This document shows positions 45,730 through 51,821 of a DNA stretch of 55,047 nt, one piece after another (positions within the stretch are counted from its first letter, which is position 1; each line of letters begins with the position of its first letter). A model generated the notes under the pieces. That model was not told the DNA's origin and searched no databases. It was given only the letters and a program-made list of their open reading frames with translations. This DNA is from Mogibacterium sp. (GTDB lineage Bacteria; Bacillota; Clostridia; Peptostreptococcales; Anaerovoracaceae), in contig JAFWMD010000035.1 of the NCBI GenBank assembly GCA_017510725.1, positions 1 to 55,047 on the forward strand, read 5' to 3'. The position numbers and the translations under genes are program-made.

Positions 45730-46439
<710 letters not shown>

Positions 46440-46443
<4 letters not shown>

Positions 46444-47522
46444 TCACCCACCTTTCCTGCAGCATCAGGTTTTCCGGAAGCAGCTGATTCCAGTCTGCCC
46501 TTTTTGAGAGCTTTCTCGATATCTGCCTTCTCTTTTTCTTCTTCCTCTTCCATCTTGCCGCGGCTTTTTCCGAGGTAAGCCTCGATTACCTTAGGGTTGC
46601 TCTGAATTTCTTCAGGCCATCCCTTGGCAATGACTCTTCCGTAGTTGAGTACCACGATGCCCTCGCATATTCCCATGACCAGGCTCATGTCGTGCTCAAT
46701 AAGGAATACCGCTATCTGGAACCTGTCGCGGATCTCTCTGATGGTATCCATCAGCTCTGTTGTCTCAGACGGGTTCATACCTGCAGCAGGCTCGTCGAGC
46801 AGCAGCAGTTTTGGTTTCGTAGCCAGCGCTCTCATGATCTCGAGCCTTCTCTGTGCTCCATACGGGAGTGATCCGGCTCTGTAGTCGGCAGTCTTCGTCA
46901 TTCCGAAGATCTTGAGATATTTCATCGCCTCCTTGCGGATGCGGAACTCCTCATGTCTGTACTTCGGAGTATGAAGCATTCCATCGATAAGGCCGTAGTT
47001 GGTCGTATGATGAAGAGCTACTTTAATGTTCTCTTCTACAGTAAGCTTGTCAAAAAGCCTGATATTCTGGAATGTACGCGCCATTCCGGCTTTATTGATA
47101 TCTACGGTGCTCATGCCCTTGGTGCTCTTGCCGTCAAAGAAGATCTCTCCTCTTGTAGGCTCGTATACCTTTGTGAGCATGTTGAAAATCGTAGTCTTAC
47201 CGGCGCCGTTAGGGCCGATCAGTCCGCCGATCTCAGTGCGGCCGAGAGTCAGATTGAAGTTATCTACCGCGGTAAGTCCGCCGAAGTCGATGCCCAGATT
47301 CTTTACCTGGAGGATAGGTGCTTTGCCCCTGTCCTTTTCAGGGATGAAGACCTGATCGTTATATGGTTCATCAGGTTCATACTGCTCTTTCGAATCTACG
47401 AAAACGGCTCTTCCGCCAACGTTGTCGTTGTAGTAGATATCCTGTCTGTTTTCATAAGCATGACCGGAGTCGGAGATGTCAATATCGCGGAGATTATCGC
47501 GCTTGTCTTTTTTATCTGCCAT
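46440..47522 (-). CDS. livG: Branched-chain amino acid ABC transporter ATP-binding protein LivG, extended at both ends
   Basis: 360 residues against about 255 for usual LivG. The ATPase core starts near residue 68 (PILQVKNLGIDFGGLTAV) with Walker A GPNGAGKTTIFNML, signature PYGAQRRLEIMRAL, Walker B LLLDEPAAGMNPSE. The first 67 residues are charged and carry Tyr/Asp-rich sequence (DIYYNDNVGGR); the last 40 are Glu/Lys-rich (EEEEEKEKADIEKALKKGR). Neither tail matches a domain I know. The stop abuts livF with a 4-base overlap, and the livM stop lies directly before the ATG. Confidence 0.92.
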
Positions 47523-48665
47523 CTATGCGACCTCCTTTCTGCTCTTTCTCTTTTTTCCCTTACCCTTGCCATCGGACCGGTTTTTGAAAGGATTGACCTT
47601 TGTCCAGATGCCTGTGATCCTTGCCTTTATAGCAGGATTATATGTACATATCATTACCAGGATGAGTACGATGGCGTATGTCAGCATTCTGTAGTCTGCA
47701 AATTGTCTGAATGTTTCAGGCAGAACTGTCAGCAATGCCGCAGCAATGATGCCGCCCCAGATGTTTCCTACTCCTCCGAGTACCACGAATACCAGTATCA
47801 GCACGGATGTGTTGAAGTTGAATTTTATAGGTACCAGCGTGCTGTAGTTGAGTCCGAACAGGCATCCTGCCATGCCGGCAAGAGCAGCACTCACGACAAA
47901 CGCCATGAGTTTGTACTTTCTGACATCAAGCCCGATGGATTCACCCGCGATGCGGTTATCTCTTATGGACATGATCGCACGGCCCTGCTTGGAGTTCTTC
48001 AGATTGAGTACGATGAATACTGTGAAGAGGCACAGCAGGAGTCCCCATGTGAACGTTGCCATGGTCTTGGTACCGGTCGCTCCAATGGCTCCGGTGATGA
48101 TTCTGTCATTGTTCTCAACTCCGTCTATGGTGTGGTTGAATGCGAATCTAAGGCGTCCGTTACCGTCAAATCCGAAGTAAAGGACGTTCATGAAGTTCCT
48201 TATGATTTCGCCGAATGCAAGCGTTACTATGGCCAGATAGTCGCCGCGGAGTCCCAGGATAGGGATACCTATTATAAATCCGGCGATTGAAGCTATGAGC
48301 GCACCGAACAGCATCGAAATGATGATGATCGCAGGCTCAAACGTCATGCTCTGTCCGAGTATGCGCGACATCAGTATTCCGCTGAAGGCGCCTACTGCCA
48401 TGAACCCCGCATGTCCCAGTGAGAGCTCTCCCGATATTCCTACTACGAGGTTGAGGGAAATAGCGAGTGAAATGTACACGCAGATAGGTACAAACTGTCC
48501 CTGCAGATTGTGACCGATAAGGCCTGCTGCTGTAAGGATCTGGAGCAGGACATATCCGCCTATGAGGATGCCGTACGAAATCGAGGCTTCCTTGCGGTAA
48601 TCATTGCCTCTTAATGCGTTTTTGAGCCCTCTGCTGCTTATGTTTTTAAGTATTCTTTCTGCCAT
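47523..48665 (-). CDS. livM: Branched-chain amino acid ABC transporter permease LivM
   Basis: 380 residues with about nine or ten membrane helices. LivM traits: LNLVVGISGELSLGHAGFMAVGA near the N-terminus (ISGELSLGHAGFM), the EAA-like loop SIRDNRIAGESIGLDVRKYK, and a basic C-terminus (GKGKKRKSRKE). One half of the channel for Leu, Ile and Val. It is 7 bases downstream of livH. Confidence 0.94.
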   Translation of the reverse strand: MAERILKNISSRGLKNALRGNDYRKEASISYGILIGGYVLLQILTAAGLIGHNLQGQFVPICVYISLAISLNLVVGISGELSLGHAGFMAVGAFSGILMSRILGQSMTFEPAIIIISMLFGALIASIAGFIIGIPILGLRGDYLAIVTLAFGEIIRNFMNVLYFGFDGNGRLRFAFNHTIDGVENNDRIITGAIGATGTKTMATFTWGLLLCLFTVFIVLNLKNSKQGRAIMSIRDNRIAGESIGLDVRKYKLMAFVVSAALAGMAGCLFGLNYSTLVPIKFNFNTSVLILVFVVLGGVGNIWGGIIAAALLTVLPETFRQFADYRMLTYAIVLILVMICTYNPAIKARITGIWTKVNPFKNRSDGKGKGKKRKSRKEVA

Positions 48666-48672
48666 GGCTCAC

Positions 48673-49557
48673 CTACACTTTCTCACTGATCTTCTTGCCC
48701 AGCAGGCCTGTAGGCTTGACGAGCAGAACGATGATCAGGCATGCAAACACAATGGCATCGGAGAGCTCCGTTGAGATATATGCTCTCGAAAAGATCTCGA
48801 TTATGCCGAGGATGAGTCCTCCTATCATAGCTCCAGGTATGGATCCAATGCCTCCGAAGACGGCGGCAGTGAATGCCTTGATGCCTGGCATGGCTCCTGT
48901 TGTAGGCATGAGTACCGGATATGCCGACAGCATAAGTACTCCGGCAACAGCAGCAAGACCGGATCCGATGGCGAATGTCAGTGAAATGGACTGGTTGACG
49001 TTGATACCCATAAGCTGAGCTGCGCCGTTGTCCTCGGAGACCGCTCTCATTGCCTTTCCGGCCTTCGTTTTGTTTACGAAGAGCGTCAGCAGGATCATGA
49101 TGACGATGTTAGCAAGGATCGTAAAGACAGACTCCATCGTGATGGTAAGCTGTCCGCCTGCAGCATGTATAGGCTTCATGCCCTTAAAAAGGCTTGTGAA
49201 CATCTTAGGGTTGGCACCCCAGATCAGAAGCGCTATGTTCTGCAGAAAGTAAGAAACACCGATAGCAGTAATCAGAACTGCCAGGGAACCGGTTCCTCTC
49301 AGCGGTCTGTAAGCAAGCCTCTCGATAGTGATACCGAGAATAGTGCAGATAAACATTGCCACCAGAAGAGCCAGCCAGCCATTCAGACCCATGTACATCG
49401 TCATTACGAATGACATGTATCCGCCGATCATAATAACATCACCATGAGCAAAATTAAGCATCTTGGAAATACCGTAAACCATAGTATATCCAAGCGCTAT
49501 GATCGCATATACACTTCCCAGGCTCAGGCCCGAAATGATATTTGTCAGTAAATTCAT
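48673..49557 (-). CDS. livH: Branched-chain amino acid ABC transporter permease LivH
   Basis: 294 residues with about eight membrane helices. LivH traits: GLSLGSVYAIIALGYTMVYG at the N-terminus and the cytoplasmic loop MRAVSEDNGAAQLMGINV. It follows livK after a 106-base gap that holds an attenuator-like hairpin. Confidence 0.95.
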   Translation of the reverse strand: MNLLTNIISGLSLGSVYAIIALGYTMVYGISKMLNFAHGDVIMIGGYMSFVMTMYMGLNGWLALLVAMFICTILGITIERLAYRPLRGTGSLAVLITAIGVSYFLQNIALLIWGANPKMFTSLFKGMKPIHAAGGQLTITMESVFTILANIVIMILLTLFVNKTKAGKAMRAVSEDNGAAQLMGINVNQSISLTFAIGSGLAAVAGVLMLSAYPVLMPTTGAMPGIKAFTAAVFGGIGSIPGAMIGGLILGIIEIFSRAYISTELSDAIVFACLIIVLLVKPTGLLGKKISEKV

Positions 49558-49586
49558 GGTTTTTTCTTCCTATAATAATTTGTGTT

Positions 49587-49627
49587 AAAACGCGGCTTCG
49601 GGGTGCCGCACCTGAATGCAGCACCCC
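49587..49627 (-). terminator. Attenuator-like hairpins between livK and livH
   Basis: Minus strand: GGGGTGC (49627-49621) pairs with GCACCCC (49606-49600). Alternatively GCGGC pairs with GCCGC and is followed directly by gTTTT. The two folds exclude each other. Partial termination here would give more binding protein than permease. Confidence 0.55.
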
Positions 49628-49663
49628 TGGGCCAACAACTATACACTTAAGTCAGTCAGTGTA

Positions 49664-50839
49664 TTACTTAACCGGAACGTATACGCCGTTCTCGATGACC
49701 ATAGCATTCGGAGTCTTGTTGACTTCGCCTGCCTCGTTCCACTGCATCTCTGCGCCTGTTACGCCGCTTGCTGTGAAGTCACCTGCGAATACCTTGATGA
49801 GTGCCTCGCAGATATCCTCGTGTGAAGCCGATGCATCGAGTCCAGCCTCGTTCATTGCCTTGTAAACTGCATATACGCAGTCATAAGCGTCAGCTGCGAA
49901 CTGGTTTGGCTCCTCGCCATAAGCTTCCTTGTATGCTGCTACGAACTTCTGTGTAGCTTCATCCTCAGCTGTAGCGATGAACGGTGTCAGAAGCATAACG
50001 CCCTCTGCCAGTTTTGTGTCAAATCCCTCGAGTGTGAGGATTCCGTCCATACCGTCAACTCCGAAGAATGTTGGAGCGTATCCGATCTTGTCTGCCTGGA
50101 TTAGGATGTTCGAAGCCGGTGTGTAGTAGATTGGCAGGAAGACGAAGTCTGCGCCTGCGTTCTTCATGCTGTTGATCTGAGCCTGGAAGTCTGTGTTGGC
50201 ATCATCAGAGAATGCCTCTACTGCTACGAGCTGCTTGCCTGCTGCTTCATATTCTGCTTTGAACTTGTCAAAGATTCCTGCGGAGTAGTCGGAAGCGTTG
50301 TTGTAGATAACGCCAACCTTAGCATCTGCCATGTTTTCGACTACCCAGTCAGCTGCAGCAACACCCTGGTTAGGGTCGGAGAAGCAGAGCTGGAATACGT
50401 TGTCCTTACCCTCTGTAACTGCTACCTGGGAAGCTGAAGGTGTGAGCTCGAATACTCTGTCTTCAAATGCCTTCTCAGAAGCTGCTACGCAGGAACCGGA
50501 TGTTGTGGATCCGATGAATACCTTCATTCCGTCGTCCATCAGCTTGTTGTAAGCGTTAACTGCCTTCTCGCCGTCAGCTTCGTCATCCTCTGCCTGCCAT
50601 GCAAGCTGGATGCCGTCCGGATTAGCTGCGTTGATCTCATCAACTGCAAGCTGTCCGCCGTTCTTTACTGCGTTTCCGTAAATAGCTGCAGGTCCTGTGA
50701 GAGGTCCTGTATTACCGAGCAATACTGCTCCGCCTTCTCCTGCATCTCCGCTTCCGCTTCCGCCGCCGCATGCTGCAAGCATGAACGCCATCATGCAGGA
50801 GAGTGCTACAACTAAGACTTTTGTCCAATTCTTTTTCAT
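49664..50839 (-). CDS. livK: Branched-chain amino acid ABC transporter substrate-binding lipoprotein LivK
   Basis: 391 residues from the ATG at 50839, which has GGGAG eight bases upstream; a longer frame to 50980 covers the leader hairpin and is rejected. Signal peptide with lipobox MLAACGGG. Periplasmic-binding-fold type I: LLGNTGPLTGPAAIYGNAVK at the start and GVIYNNASDYSAGIFDKFK in the middle are typical of Leu/Ile/Val receptors. It captures branched-chain amino acids outside the membrane for LivHMGF. Confidence 0.94.
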   Translation of the reverse strand: MKKNWTKVLVVALSCMMAFMLAACGGGSGSGDAGEGGAVLLGNTGPLTGPAAIYGNAVKNGGQLAVDEINAANPDGIQLAWQAEDDEADGEKAVNAYNKLMDDGMKVFIGSTTSGSCVAASEKAFEDRVFELTPSASQVAVTEGKDNVFQLCFSDPNQGVAAADWVVENMADAKVGVIYNNASDYSAGIFDKFKAEYEAAGKQLVAVEAFSDDANTDFQAQINSMKNAGADFVFLPIYYTPASNILIQADKIGYAPTFFGVDGMDGILTLEGFDTKLAEGVMLLTPFIATAEDEATQKFVAAYKEAYGEEPNQFAADAYDCVYAVYKAMNEAGLDASASHEDICEALIKVFAGDFTASGVTGAEMQWNEAGEVNKTPNAMVIENGVYVPVK

Positions 50840-50928
50840 TTTTCTACTCCCTTTCTCTTCTGAAATAAATGGATCTGACTGAGTTATAGTTGATAGTTGC
50901 CTGTTTGCCTTAGCCCGGGCATTTAATA

Positions 50929-50948
50929 AGCCCGCATTGCTGCGGGCT
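50929..50948 (-). terminator. Leader hairpin between leader ORF and livK
   Basis: AGCCCGCA and TGCGGGCT form an 8-bp stem with a four-base loop (GCAA on the minus strand), followed by TTATTAAAT. Just downstream GCCCGGGC (50913-50920) can pair with either arm, so alternative folds exist. Confidence 0.5.
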
Positions 50949-50985
50949 CCCAAGCTCAGGTTAATGACCTTTGTACTCAATCGCC

Positions 50986-51072
50986 CTACAGCATAACATC
51001 GCCCTCTACCAGTCTTACGACCAGAAGGACGCCGATAATGCCGATGACGATAATGCTTGAGCTAAAGTACAT
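50986..51072 (-). CDS. 28-residue branched-chain-rich leader peptide or small membrane protein
   Basis: ATG at 51072 with a strong ribosome site (AAGGAG, five bases spacing) and TAG at 50986. The peptide begins MYFSSSIIVIGIIGV and continues LLVVRLVEGDVML; 15 of 28 residues are Ile, Leu or Val. It is the first ORF after a consensus promoter and lies about 145 bases before livK. This matches the layout of amino-acid attenuation leaders (ilv, leu). Its middle would also pass as a membrane helix, so a small membrane protein is the alternative. Confidence 0.65.
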   Translation of the reverse strand: MYFSSSIIVIGIIGVLLVVRLVEGDVML

Positions 51073-51081
51073 ATGGTCTCC

Positions 51082-51107
51082 TTTTGTGCACAGGTTTTGT
51101 GTACAGT
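51082..51107. promoter_or_regulatory. Tandem 13-bp operator-like repeats in the liv leader
   Basis: TTTTGTGCACAGG and TTTTGTGTACAGT follow each other head to tail at 51082-51094 and 51095-51107, directly at the transcription start. A related ATTTGTGTACATT lies upstream of the promoter at 51174-51186. These look like sites for a regulator of the liv operon. Confidence 0.5.
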
Positions 51108-51110
51108 GCG

Positions 51111-51139
51111 ATTATAGTATTGTGAAGATTGTGTGTCAA
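51111..51139 (-). promoter_or_regulatory. Consensus promoter of the liv operon
   Basis: Minus strand TTGACA (51139-51134), exactly 17 bases, TATAAT (51116-51111). Both hexamers match the sigma-A consensus perfectly. Transcription should start near 51104. Confidence 0.8.
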
Positions 51140-51220
51140 CCATTTTGTGAAAAAAGTCAATTTTCGAGCCCTAATTTGTGTACATTATACAAAACAATCC
51201 ATTTTTGATTAAAAAAGCAC

Positions 51221-51245
51221 AAAAAACCTCCCAAAAAGGGAGGTT
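51221..51245 (-). terminator. Terminator of the phosphoribosyltransferase gene
   Basis: AACCTCCC and GGGAGGTT form an 8-bp stem with a five-base loop; TTTT runs on behind it on the minus strand. It lies 27 bases after the stop. Confidence 0.8.
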
Positions 51246-51272
51246 AAAATGCTGTATTTTTGTTTTCCCAAA

Positions 51273-51821
51273 CTATTGAGGAGTACCGTCCGAATTGAAG
51301 AGCGGCAGATACTCGAGGAAGGTGATATCTGTGCGGTCAGCTGCCTCGCCTTCTGCGAGCACCGTGAACTTGCCTACGATATTGCCTCCGACTGTCTCTA
51401 CCAGCGTCTCAAGAGCAGCGAGTGACTCGCCTGTGCTGATAACGTCATCAACTATCAGCGTACGCTTGCCCTGAATCTGTTCTCTTTCGTCTCTTCCGAG
51501 GCACAGTGTCTGAACGTGATCAGTTGTGATCGAATTGACCTGGACCTTTACGACATCCTGCATGTAAAGCTTTGCACCTTTGCGTGCTACGATATAAGGC
51601 TTGCCGGACTGGCGTGCCATCTCATAGCACAGAGGAATGCCCTTGCTTTCTGCAGTGATGAGCACATCGAACTCAGGCGCCTGTTTCAGAAGGTCGCGCG
51701 CTGCCGCCTCTGTTACCTCTACATCATTGAACATAATGAAACCTGCGATATACAGGTCGTCTGTGACCTTGCAGAGCGGCAGATGCCTCTCGAGGCCTGC
51801 GATAGTCATCTTATAATCCAT
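51273..51821 (-). CDS. Type I phosphoribosyltransferase (adenine/xanthine type)
   Basis: 182 residues from the ATG at 51821 (AAGGA seven bases upstream); the frame also has ATGs at 51827 and 51878 that lack a spaced site. The PRPP-binding motif is LIVDDVISTGESLAALE, and FDVLITAESKGIPLCYEMAR precedes it. The length and motifs resemble adenine phosphoribosyltransferase and PurR-like PRTases. It salvages a purine base to its nucleotide with PRPP. It is monocistronic: it has its own terminator. Confidence 0.8.
   Translation of the reverse strand: MDYKMTIAGLERHLPLCKVTDDLYIAGFIMFNDVEVTEAAARDLLKQAPEFDVLITAESKGIPLCYEMARQSGKPYIVARKGAKLYMQDVVKVQVNSITTDHVQTLCLGRDEREQIQGKRTLIVDDVISTGESLAALETLVETVGGNIVGKFTVLAEGEAADRTDITFLEYLPLFNSDGTPQ

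Follow-up and report, generated by a model that had tools for sequence, protein, structure and literature searches.

The liv operon and its leader

The window, i. e. the whole stretch of 55,047 nucleotides that was analysed, is part of a 2.4 Mb genome of Mogibacterium, a genus of the Anaerovoracaceae within the Clostridia. Its closest named relatives are gut MAGs, chiefly from ruminants, that are labelled Mogibacterium sp. or Clostridiales (LivK 73–97% identical). A short leader and the genes of an importer lie together on the minus strand in the order livK-livH-livM-livG-livF and encode a substrate-binding protein (livK, 49664–50839; PF13458, 3.4e-45), two permeases (livH, 48673–49557, and livM, 47523–48665; both PF02653) and two ATPases (livG, 46440–47522; PF00005 and PF12399, and livF, 45730–46443; PF00005). 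The best NCBIfam models for the five proteins, i. e. NF011933, NF008011, NF008450, NF008449 and NF008626, respectively, score below their curated cut-offs, and the substrate class, branched-chain amino acids (BCAAs), is therefore assigned by family only. The upstream neighbour of the leader is an adenine-phosphoribosyltransferase-like gene with its own terminator at 51245–51225. Within the operon, the gap between livK and livH (49558–49663) harbors GGGGTGCTGCATTCAGGTGCGGCACCCC, a GC-rich hairpin of 12 bp that lacks a T-run and resembles the mRNA-stabilising or processing hairpins that are often found 3′ of binding-protein genes.

The leader region opens with a sigma-70 promoter, TTGACA-17 nt-TATAAT (51139–51111, minus strand), that agrees with the consensus at 12 of 12 positions. 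It is the sole promoter-like site in 50500–51500 (on average, 1.2 sites occur in shuffled sequences at the lower threshold of the scan, 9/12), and a comparable promoter can be recognised by eye in the upstream regions of relatives. A Shine-Dalgarno sequence, AAGGAG (51083–51078), then precedes an ORF of 28 codons plus TAG (51072–50986), whose peptide MYFSSSIIVIGIIGVLLVVRLVEGDVML contains Ile, Leu or Val at 15 of the 28 positions. The perfect promoter, the ribosome site and the richness in branched-chain codons had all been pointed out in a first-pass annotation of this DNA and were found as described. The binomial chance of such a content is 2.7e-4, uncorrected for the post hoc choice of the ORF, at a background of 22.1% I/L/V that was derived from 45 window ORFs picked by length, at least one of which is probably spurious. 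An I/V/L-rich leader ORF is present at 28 of the 30 livK loci of the genus, and the two remaining loci (L007 and L010) are truncated at contig ends.

Mutually exclusive helices in the leader RNA

Pairing in the alignment of genus leaders points to two helices that exclude each other. Region 2, GCUGUAGGGC (50992–50983), overlaps the stop codon of the ORF and the codon before it. As the predicted antiterminator strand, it is able to pair with region 3, GCCCGCAGC (50947–50939), in nine pairs with one bulged A. Region 3 is common to antiterminator and terminator, as it also lies in the 5′ arm of the 3:4 hairpin, AGCCCGCA-GCAA-TGCGGGCT (50948–50929), a GC-rich, putative terminator or pause hairpin. 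According to MFE folds, most of the leader ORF and the stop region form a third element, the 1:2 protector hairpin (51051–50980). In addition, GACC (51078–51075), which overlaps the leader Shine-Dalgarno sequence, is able to pair with GGUC (50969–50966) in a helix termed P1, while an outer stem of CCTGAGCTTGGG (50960–50949) and CCCGGGCTAAGG (50919–50908) surrounds the 3:4 hairpin in the predicted folds. The first-pass annotation had placed the hairpin at exactly these coordinates and had let it compete with the downstream GCCCGGGC (50920–50913). The latter assignment was rejected, since CCCGGGC pairs with GCUUGGG as part of the outer stem in the predicted fold and the competitor is GCUGUAGGGC instead.

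The predicted folding energy of the 266-nt leader is −82.0 kcal/mol, compared with −66.9 ± 5.0 for shuffled sequences (z −3.0; 0 of 200 shuffles equal). For regions 2 and 3 (25 + 15 nt around), RNAduplex gives −17.4 kcal/mol, a value that was matched by 17 of 2000 shuffles of region 2. Furthermore, the outer-stem and P1 strands of 36 leaders pair better with their cognate partners than when re-paired among leaders (−13.43 vs. −10.65 and −6.00 vs. −4.91 kcal/mol, respectively), and 0 of 500 re-pairings were as good in either case. P1 itself is paired in only 58.6% of the cells of the genus alignment.

This alignment comprises 38 leaders, without L021, which misaligned in an earlier version, and was fitted to a covariance model that contains 1:2 and 3:4 and lacks 2:3. 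In it, 98.2% of the cells of the 2:3 antiterminator are paired vs. 24–49% in slid controls, and 99.3% of those of the 3:4 hairpin vs. 16–49%. In each of these helices, two pairs carry changes in both strands and yet remain paired, a number that some slid versions of 2:3 also reach and no slid version of 3:4 does. The combined P1 and 1:2 structure is 86.9% paired (slid controls 33–57%) and shows both-side changes in 17 of 38 pairs, with 7.6 ± 1.7 in shuffles; slid controls contain up to 15 such pairs, and one of them has 41 both-side-changed cells vs. 32 observed. All these counts come from related members of one genus, two leaders even from a single genome (G334), and are therefore not independent events. 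The both-side-changed pairs in 2:3, 3:4 and 1:2 agree with the covarying hairpins anticipated in the first pass, with the reservation for 2:3 that some slid versions are its equal.

In L021 and L106, which have diverged furthest among the leaders, the 2:3 helix is built from other letters (AUGCAGG:CCUGCAU). Their region 2 pairs with the main-clade region 3 at −7.0 and −9.5 vs. −11.9 with their own, although that of L106 is slightly better with the region 3 of two other species (−12.2) than with its own. Shuffles of region 2 equal the native value in 30 of 2000 cases for L021 and in 98 of 2000 for L106. Two further leaders, L016 and L017, have a weak 2:3 helix, for which 799 and 586 of 2000 shuffles, respectively, were as good.

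When 29 leaders were combined into a covariance model, it matched 40 of 47 genomes of the genus at E ≤ 1, 37 of these at E ≤ 1e-8, where many of the genomes supplied the leaders and thus match by construction. Inspection showed two weak matches, in G407 (L106) and G028 (L021), to be true leaders; a third weak match lies in G005. Further matches at L064, L067, L072, L073, L075, L097, L102, L106, L107 and L108 precede livK, while the fragments L103, L104 and L105 end at contig ends next to the phosphoribosyltransferase gene. Weak second matches within the genus (L113, L114) were rejected as leaders because they are not associated with liv, as were L109–L112 and L115 outside the genus, where six of the 15 genomes with matches at E ≤ 0.1 were inspected. 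One extra-genus match, G382:C147 (L150; E 0.026), does sit before livK. In the genome of the window, a search for a second copy of the leader recovered the leader and otherwise matches with E values of at least 0.98.

The hairpin and its weak U-tract

The U-tract that follows the 3:4 hairpin, UUAUUAAAU (50929–50921), is weak, with four T in the eight bases after GCGGGC, as had also been remarked in the first pass. The corresponding sequence in the genus is mostly UUAUUAAAUG, and the T count in these eight positions is 3–5 in 36 of 38 leaders and six in L020 and L106; L021 carries a long T-run. For comparison, 8 of the 11 best hairpins 3′ of window genes are followed by 5–7 T in eight bases. 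An ATG (50922–50920) occupies positions +8 to +10 after GCGGGC with the same spacing in 35 of 36 leaders, while the letters of the spacer vary. This fixed ATG may mark a site of polymerase pausing or release. The idea that it starts a second ORF was dismissed, as the frame comprises only three codons in L002 and L012 (inspected by eye). NusA and NusG are known helpers of weak terminators. The hairpin may act by unaided termination, by NusA/NusG-dependent termination or mainly by polymerase pausing. Between the leader hairpin and livK, additional hairpin-forming insertions were seen by eye in L006, L015, L024 and L046.

Stall-dependent folding and the proposed mechanism

The effect of ribosome position on the exclusive helices was computed for 39 leaders by folding the nascent RNA up to the hairpin loop with a 30-nt ribosome footprint forced single-stranded. 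With cut-offs that were chosen after the values were known (0.21, 0.85 and 0.10), the probability of 2:3 is at most 0.21 without a ribosome in 32 leaders, at least 0.85 with the P site at one or more of codons 6–14 in 36 leaders, and at most 0.10 with a ribosome at the stop codon in all 39; 29 leaders combine the three behaviors. In L002, L012, L013, L014, L015, L051 and L052, the antiterminator already forms partly or for the most part with no ribosome present, which in the model would cost these leaders only the shut-off in the absence of translation; in L016, L017 and L009 the antiterminator is weak.

These constrained folds and the clustering of Ile mark codons 7–14 (I I V I G I I G; 51054–51031) as the predicted sensor. 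In the window leader, 2:3 is lost with the P site at codons 15, 16 and 18 (0.01–0.02) and returns at codon 20 (0.85), and in some other leaders the stall that frees the antiterminator also reaches beyond codon 14. The Ile residues of 36 leaders are concentrated in codons 7–14 (154 of 160), unlike those of Val (44 of 188) and Leu (15 of 160). As nearly all Ile codons thus fall where a stall is effective, isoleucine is the predicted main signal, to which valine is predicted to add. Leucine may contribute as well, because the stall at codon 20, with Leu 21 next, likewise frees the antiterminator.

Taken together, the stretch from 51139 to 50908 very probably controls livKHMGF by ribosome-mediated (leader-peptide) attenuation of transcription. 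The ORF, the conserved exclusive helices, their stall-dependent folding, the codon constraint and the presence of a like layout in other genera (see below) were shown computationally; we infer that the ORF is translated, that transcription terminates at the hairpin and that the operon is regulated and responds to isoleucine. According to this proposal, a ribosome would translate the 28-codon ORF close behind RNA polymerase. With charged isoleucyl-tRNA (and valyl-tRNA) at hand, it would arrive at the stop codon and cover GCUGUAGGGC, whereupon the 3:4 hairpin could form and transcription would stop or pause before livK. If charged tRNA-Ile became scarce, the ribosome would stall on codons 7–14 and break the 1:2 hairpin, and the freed GCUGUAGGGC could then capture GCCCGCAGC as the antiterminator, which would let RNA polymerase run into the importer genes. 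With no ribosome on the leader, the 1:2 hairpin would form and the operon would be off. In the full RNA at equilibrium, 3:4 is favoured in most ribosome states of the three leaders that were folded in this way. The model therefore needs co-transcriptional folding, as is the case for other attenuators.

The leader in other genera of the family

For a view beyond the genus, LivH orthologues were sought in 247 genomes of the family. From 31 extra-genus loci with at least 60% LivH identity, 30 were taken, leaving out G333, which begins 254 nt before livH. L152 and L153 were dropped, as they hold too little upstream DNA, so that 28 testable loci remained. An automatic rule asked for a hairpin with at least five T in nine bases, no more than 230 nt from livK and preceded by an ORF of 16–75 codons led by a Shine-Dalgarno sequence. 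It was passed by 22 of the 28 loci from nine genera, all 22 with at least 33% I/L/V, although the ORF that it picked at L168 is an internal one. When L141, L147 and L151 are added by hand (L147 and L151 with an unverified start codon), an I/V/L-rich leader ORF together with a T-run hairpin is found at 25 of 28 loci from ten other genera; L144, L162 and L167 are without this layout. The peptides, for example MNLAIVLSSIIIISIILAVGVLLENSAY, MTVLTNLLIVISIIIIVLGIIKDDICYVVR and MSFYAIISLAVISIITAVITVAGVISDNAYLVAGEHKKSA, range from 28 to 70 residues and look unrelated to that of the window when compared by eye, without alignment, and the ORFs are followed by ordinary T-run terminators. In L147, L149 and L163, the leader ORFs comprise 68–70 codons with about 27–30 I/L/V (the start of L147 being putative) and are thus far longer than classical ones.

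As a control, the rule was applied with the additional demand of at least 33% I/L/V to ATG-started genes of at least 200 codons in the window and at other loci, drawn from 19 sources, among them livK genes of the genus with weak tails. None of the 134 control genes passed, 25 of which had a T-run hairpin. The leaders of the genus itself were not flagged by the rule in the control run either, owing to their weak T tails. The layout with dissimilar I/V/L-rich peptides at 25 of 28 loci, and at none of the control genes, agrees with what the first-pass annotation had expected of an attenuator, namely that the content of I/L/V codons stays while the peptide drifts. Of a longer list of more distant loci, 11 (LivH 52–56%) were taken, of which L169 and L173 pass the rule; L178 fails it and is a candidate by eye that was left out of the counts. 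L169 and L173 were rejected as leaders and left uncounted, since they look by eye like the ends of an upstream membrane-protein gene.

In a strict version of the stall test, 4 of 24 leaders from other genera or distant loci pass, a set that includes L178 and excludes L151, whose start codon was not located. Such a generic test is noisy, because strand 3 also forms local pairs. The layout in other genera is well supported, the fold logic there much less so. Among LivK relatives outside the family (L053–L057, L059 and L060), no similar I/L/V leader ORF was recognised, and hairpins at these loci were covered by the control run. At L055, an upstream gene ends and a weak candidate ORF with a TTG start has 10 I/L/V in 25 codons.

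RNA constraint and alternative explanations

If the leader ORF encoded a small membrane protein that acts together with the importer, with incidental RNA structure, its third codon positions should be free to vary. Nucleotide diversity at codon positions 1, 2 and 3 is 0.200, 0.131 and 0.222 in 36 leaders, compared with 0.211, 0.166 and 0.437 in livK of 36 loci and 0.101, 0.049 and 0.504 in livH of 34 of these. The third positions of the leader are thus constrained like the others, which is not what is seen in a sequence selected for its peptide. Random synonymous recoding of codons 2–24 mostly breaks the protector. The share of recoded sequences that kept it functional (2:3 below 0.2 without a ribosome) was 5/300 for the window leader (L001), 1/200 for L026, 21/200 for L018 and 31/200 for L019. 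Hence, codon choice and not the peptide sets the fold. The hydrophobic core does favour a membrane protein, with a maximal Kyte-Doolittle mean over 19 residues of 2.0–2.6 in 33 of 36 peptides. Yet the peptides of L108, L026 and L102 have charged residues, Pro, Gln or Asn in or near this core (1.46–1.66) and would make poor membrane helices, and the ORFs of L030 and L108 stop early while the downstream RNA is kept. In view also of the unrelated appearance of the peptides from other genera and of the pairs that are changed on both sides, the membrane protein is a highly improbable explanation. Strict conservation of the peptide, which the first pass had named as an observation that would speak against an attenuator, was not found, as charged or polar residues, a proline and early stops occur while the RNA partners are kept. 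Equally improbable is a sensor of nascent-chain arrest or membrane insertion, in which the hydrophobic peptide itself and not hungry codons would stall the ribosome. The hydrophobic nascent chain would fit, and the same RNA switch would serve. Known arrest peptides, however, require a fixed C-terminal motif, whereas here the sequence drifts between genera while the I/V/L content stays, and Ile is nearly confined to codons 7–14.

A third alternative keeps the same sensor of ribosome position and differs in its output, as 3:4 would mainly pause the polymerase or stabilise or process the 5′ end of the mRNA rather than terminate transcription. The weak U-tract, the conserved outer stem around the hairpin and the fixed ATG are in line with it. 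The ATG places U and G at +9/+10 in 35 of 36 leaders, and this U-G step recalls the Y−1 G+1 at the end of hairpin-dependent pauses. On the other hand, six of eight bases are T in the diverged L020 and L106, and L021 has a long T-run. Together with the ordinary terminators of the other genera, these T-runs make termination look ancestral, and a main role in pausing or processing is improbable, though less so than the two peptide-based explanations. We give somewhat more weight, still as a rather unlikely scenario, to a change of output within the genus. Here, the T-run terminator would have been replaced by the hairpin, the outer stem and the U-G step 9–10 nt downstream, and ribosome position would control a pause or a factor-dependent partial termination, which would allow graded uptake of isoleucine. 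A leader-peptide attenuator of the importer genes thus remains the preferred reading.

Relation to known systems and genomic context

Leader-peptide attenuation is textbook knowledge for the biosynthesis of BCAAs. Leader-peptide attenuators are described for ilvGMEDA, ilvBN and leuABCD of E. coli, with a 32-aa peptide containing 15 BCAAs in the case of ilvGMEDA (PMC6123439). The Mogibacterium leader shares with them a short peptide rich in BCAA codons as well as antiterminator and (here putative) terminator hairpins. Unlike those attenuators, it precedes the genes of an ABC importer rather than a biosynthetic operon, has a weak T-run and carries its Shine-Dalgarno sequence in a helix. In Bacillota, ribosome-mediated attenuation is described for Rli60 before ilv-leu of Listeria monocytogenes, with an antiterminator (−10.3 kcal/mol) that, as in the present leader, is weaker than the terminator (−17.1 kcal/mol) (PMC5864092), and for the ilvD leader of Staphylococcus aureus (PMC5794164). 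Both resemble the present leader in the mode of control proposed here, by description and not by sequence, but precede biosynthetic operons, as do further BCAA leader peptides (PMC1262725). The nearest precedent by target type, an amino-acid ABC transporter in Bacillota, is provided by His leader attenuators that were predicted upstream of the his operon and/or the hisZYX transporter in Peptostreptococcaceae and Erysipelotrichaceae (PMC9413887). These differ in having runs of His codons and in serving histidine transport, again as compared by description and not by sequence. The locus most likely works like the ilv/leu attenuators, with which it shares structural and codon features. As the first pass had proposed, the layout of an ilv/leu-type attenuator appears to be used on a transport operon, and the exclusive helices, the codon constraint and the other genera lend support to this.

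Conserved RNAs upstream of liv-type transport genes are also represented by the livK motif of Pseudomonadales (RF01744; PMC2864571) and by the livJ motif of Streptomyces, which is described as a riboswitch candidate (PMC11109978) and, unlike the present leader, not as an I/L/V leader ORF in the accessible part of that source. RF01744, the Leu/phe leader RF01743 and other Rfam leaders gave no gathering-score matches in the window or in 11 related loci; the best matches in the window are sub-threshold, e. g. Trp_leader with 19.3 bits vs. 41 (E 0.28). Control of BCAA uptake by tRNA charging, as proposed here, is further known from Ile T-boxes, which precede ABC and LIVCS transporters in some Bacillota according to Table 1 of PMC2494555, whose columns are garbled in the available version. 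A further study predicted 205 attenuated ABC transporter genes in bacteria (PMC2965389), and its tables could include liv. With this proviso, no leader-peptide attenuator of a liv importer was found in the accessible parts of the open-access literature, and those of PMC6212715 and PMC2704228 contain nothing on the subject.

Throughout this family of gut Clostridia, leader-peptide attenuation seems to be the established means of controlling BCAA uptake. If this holds true, import and not synthesis would be gated by isoleucyl-tRNA charging in these bacteria. The family would moreover constitute a natural series in which the layout persists while the sequences of peptide, RNA and terminator drift, which could be useful for studying the evolution of attenuators as well as the question of the minimal U-tract.

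In the genome of the window, another contig (L134, G000:C37:17000–34000) carries a long ilv-leu operon with two pairs of acetolactate-synthase large and small subunits and a divergent leucine-dehydrogenase-like gene, all named by eye. The 175 nt before its first gene contain no comparable I/L/V leader, the best candidate led by a Shine-Dalgarno sequence having 16 codons with five I/L/V, and no T-run hairpin occurs within 230 nt upstream. The T-box covariance model (RF00230) has no match in the window; both of its matches in this genome lie on other contigs. They score below the gathering threshold and are located upstream of a threonyl-tRNA-synthetase-like gene (L135, G000:C90) and a tryptophan-synthase-beta-like gene (L136, G000:C21), both identified by eye, which makes it probable that T-boxes serve other amino acids in this genome.
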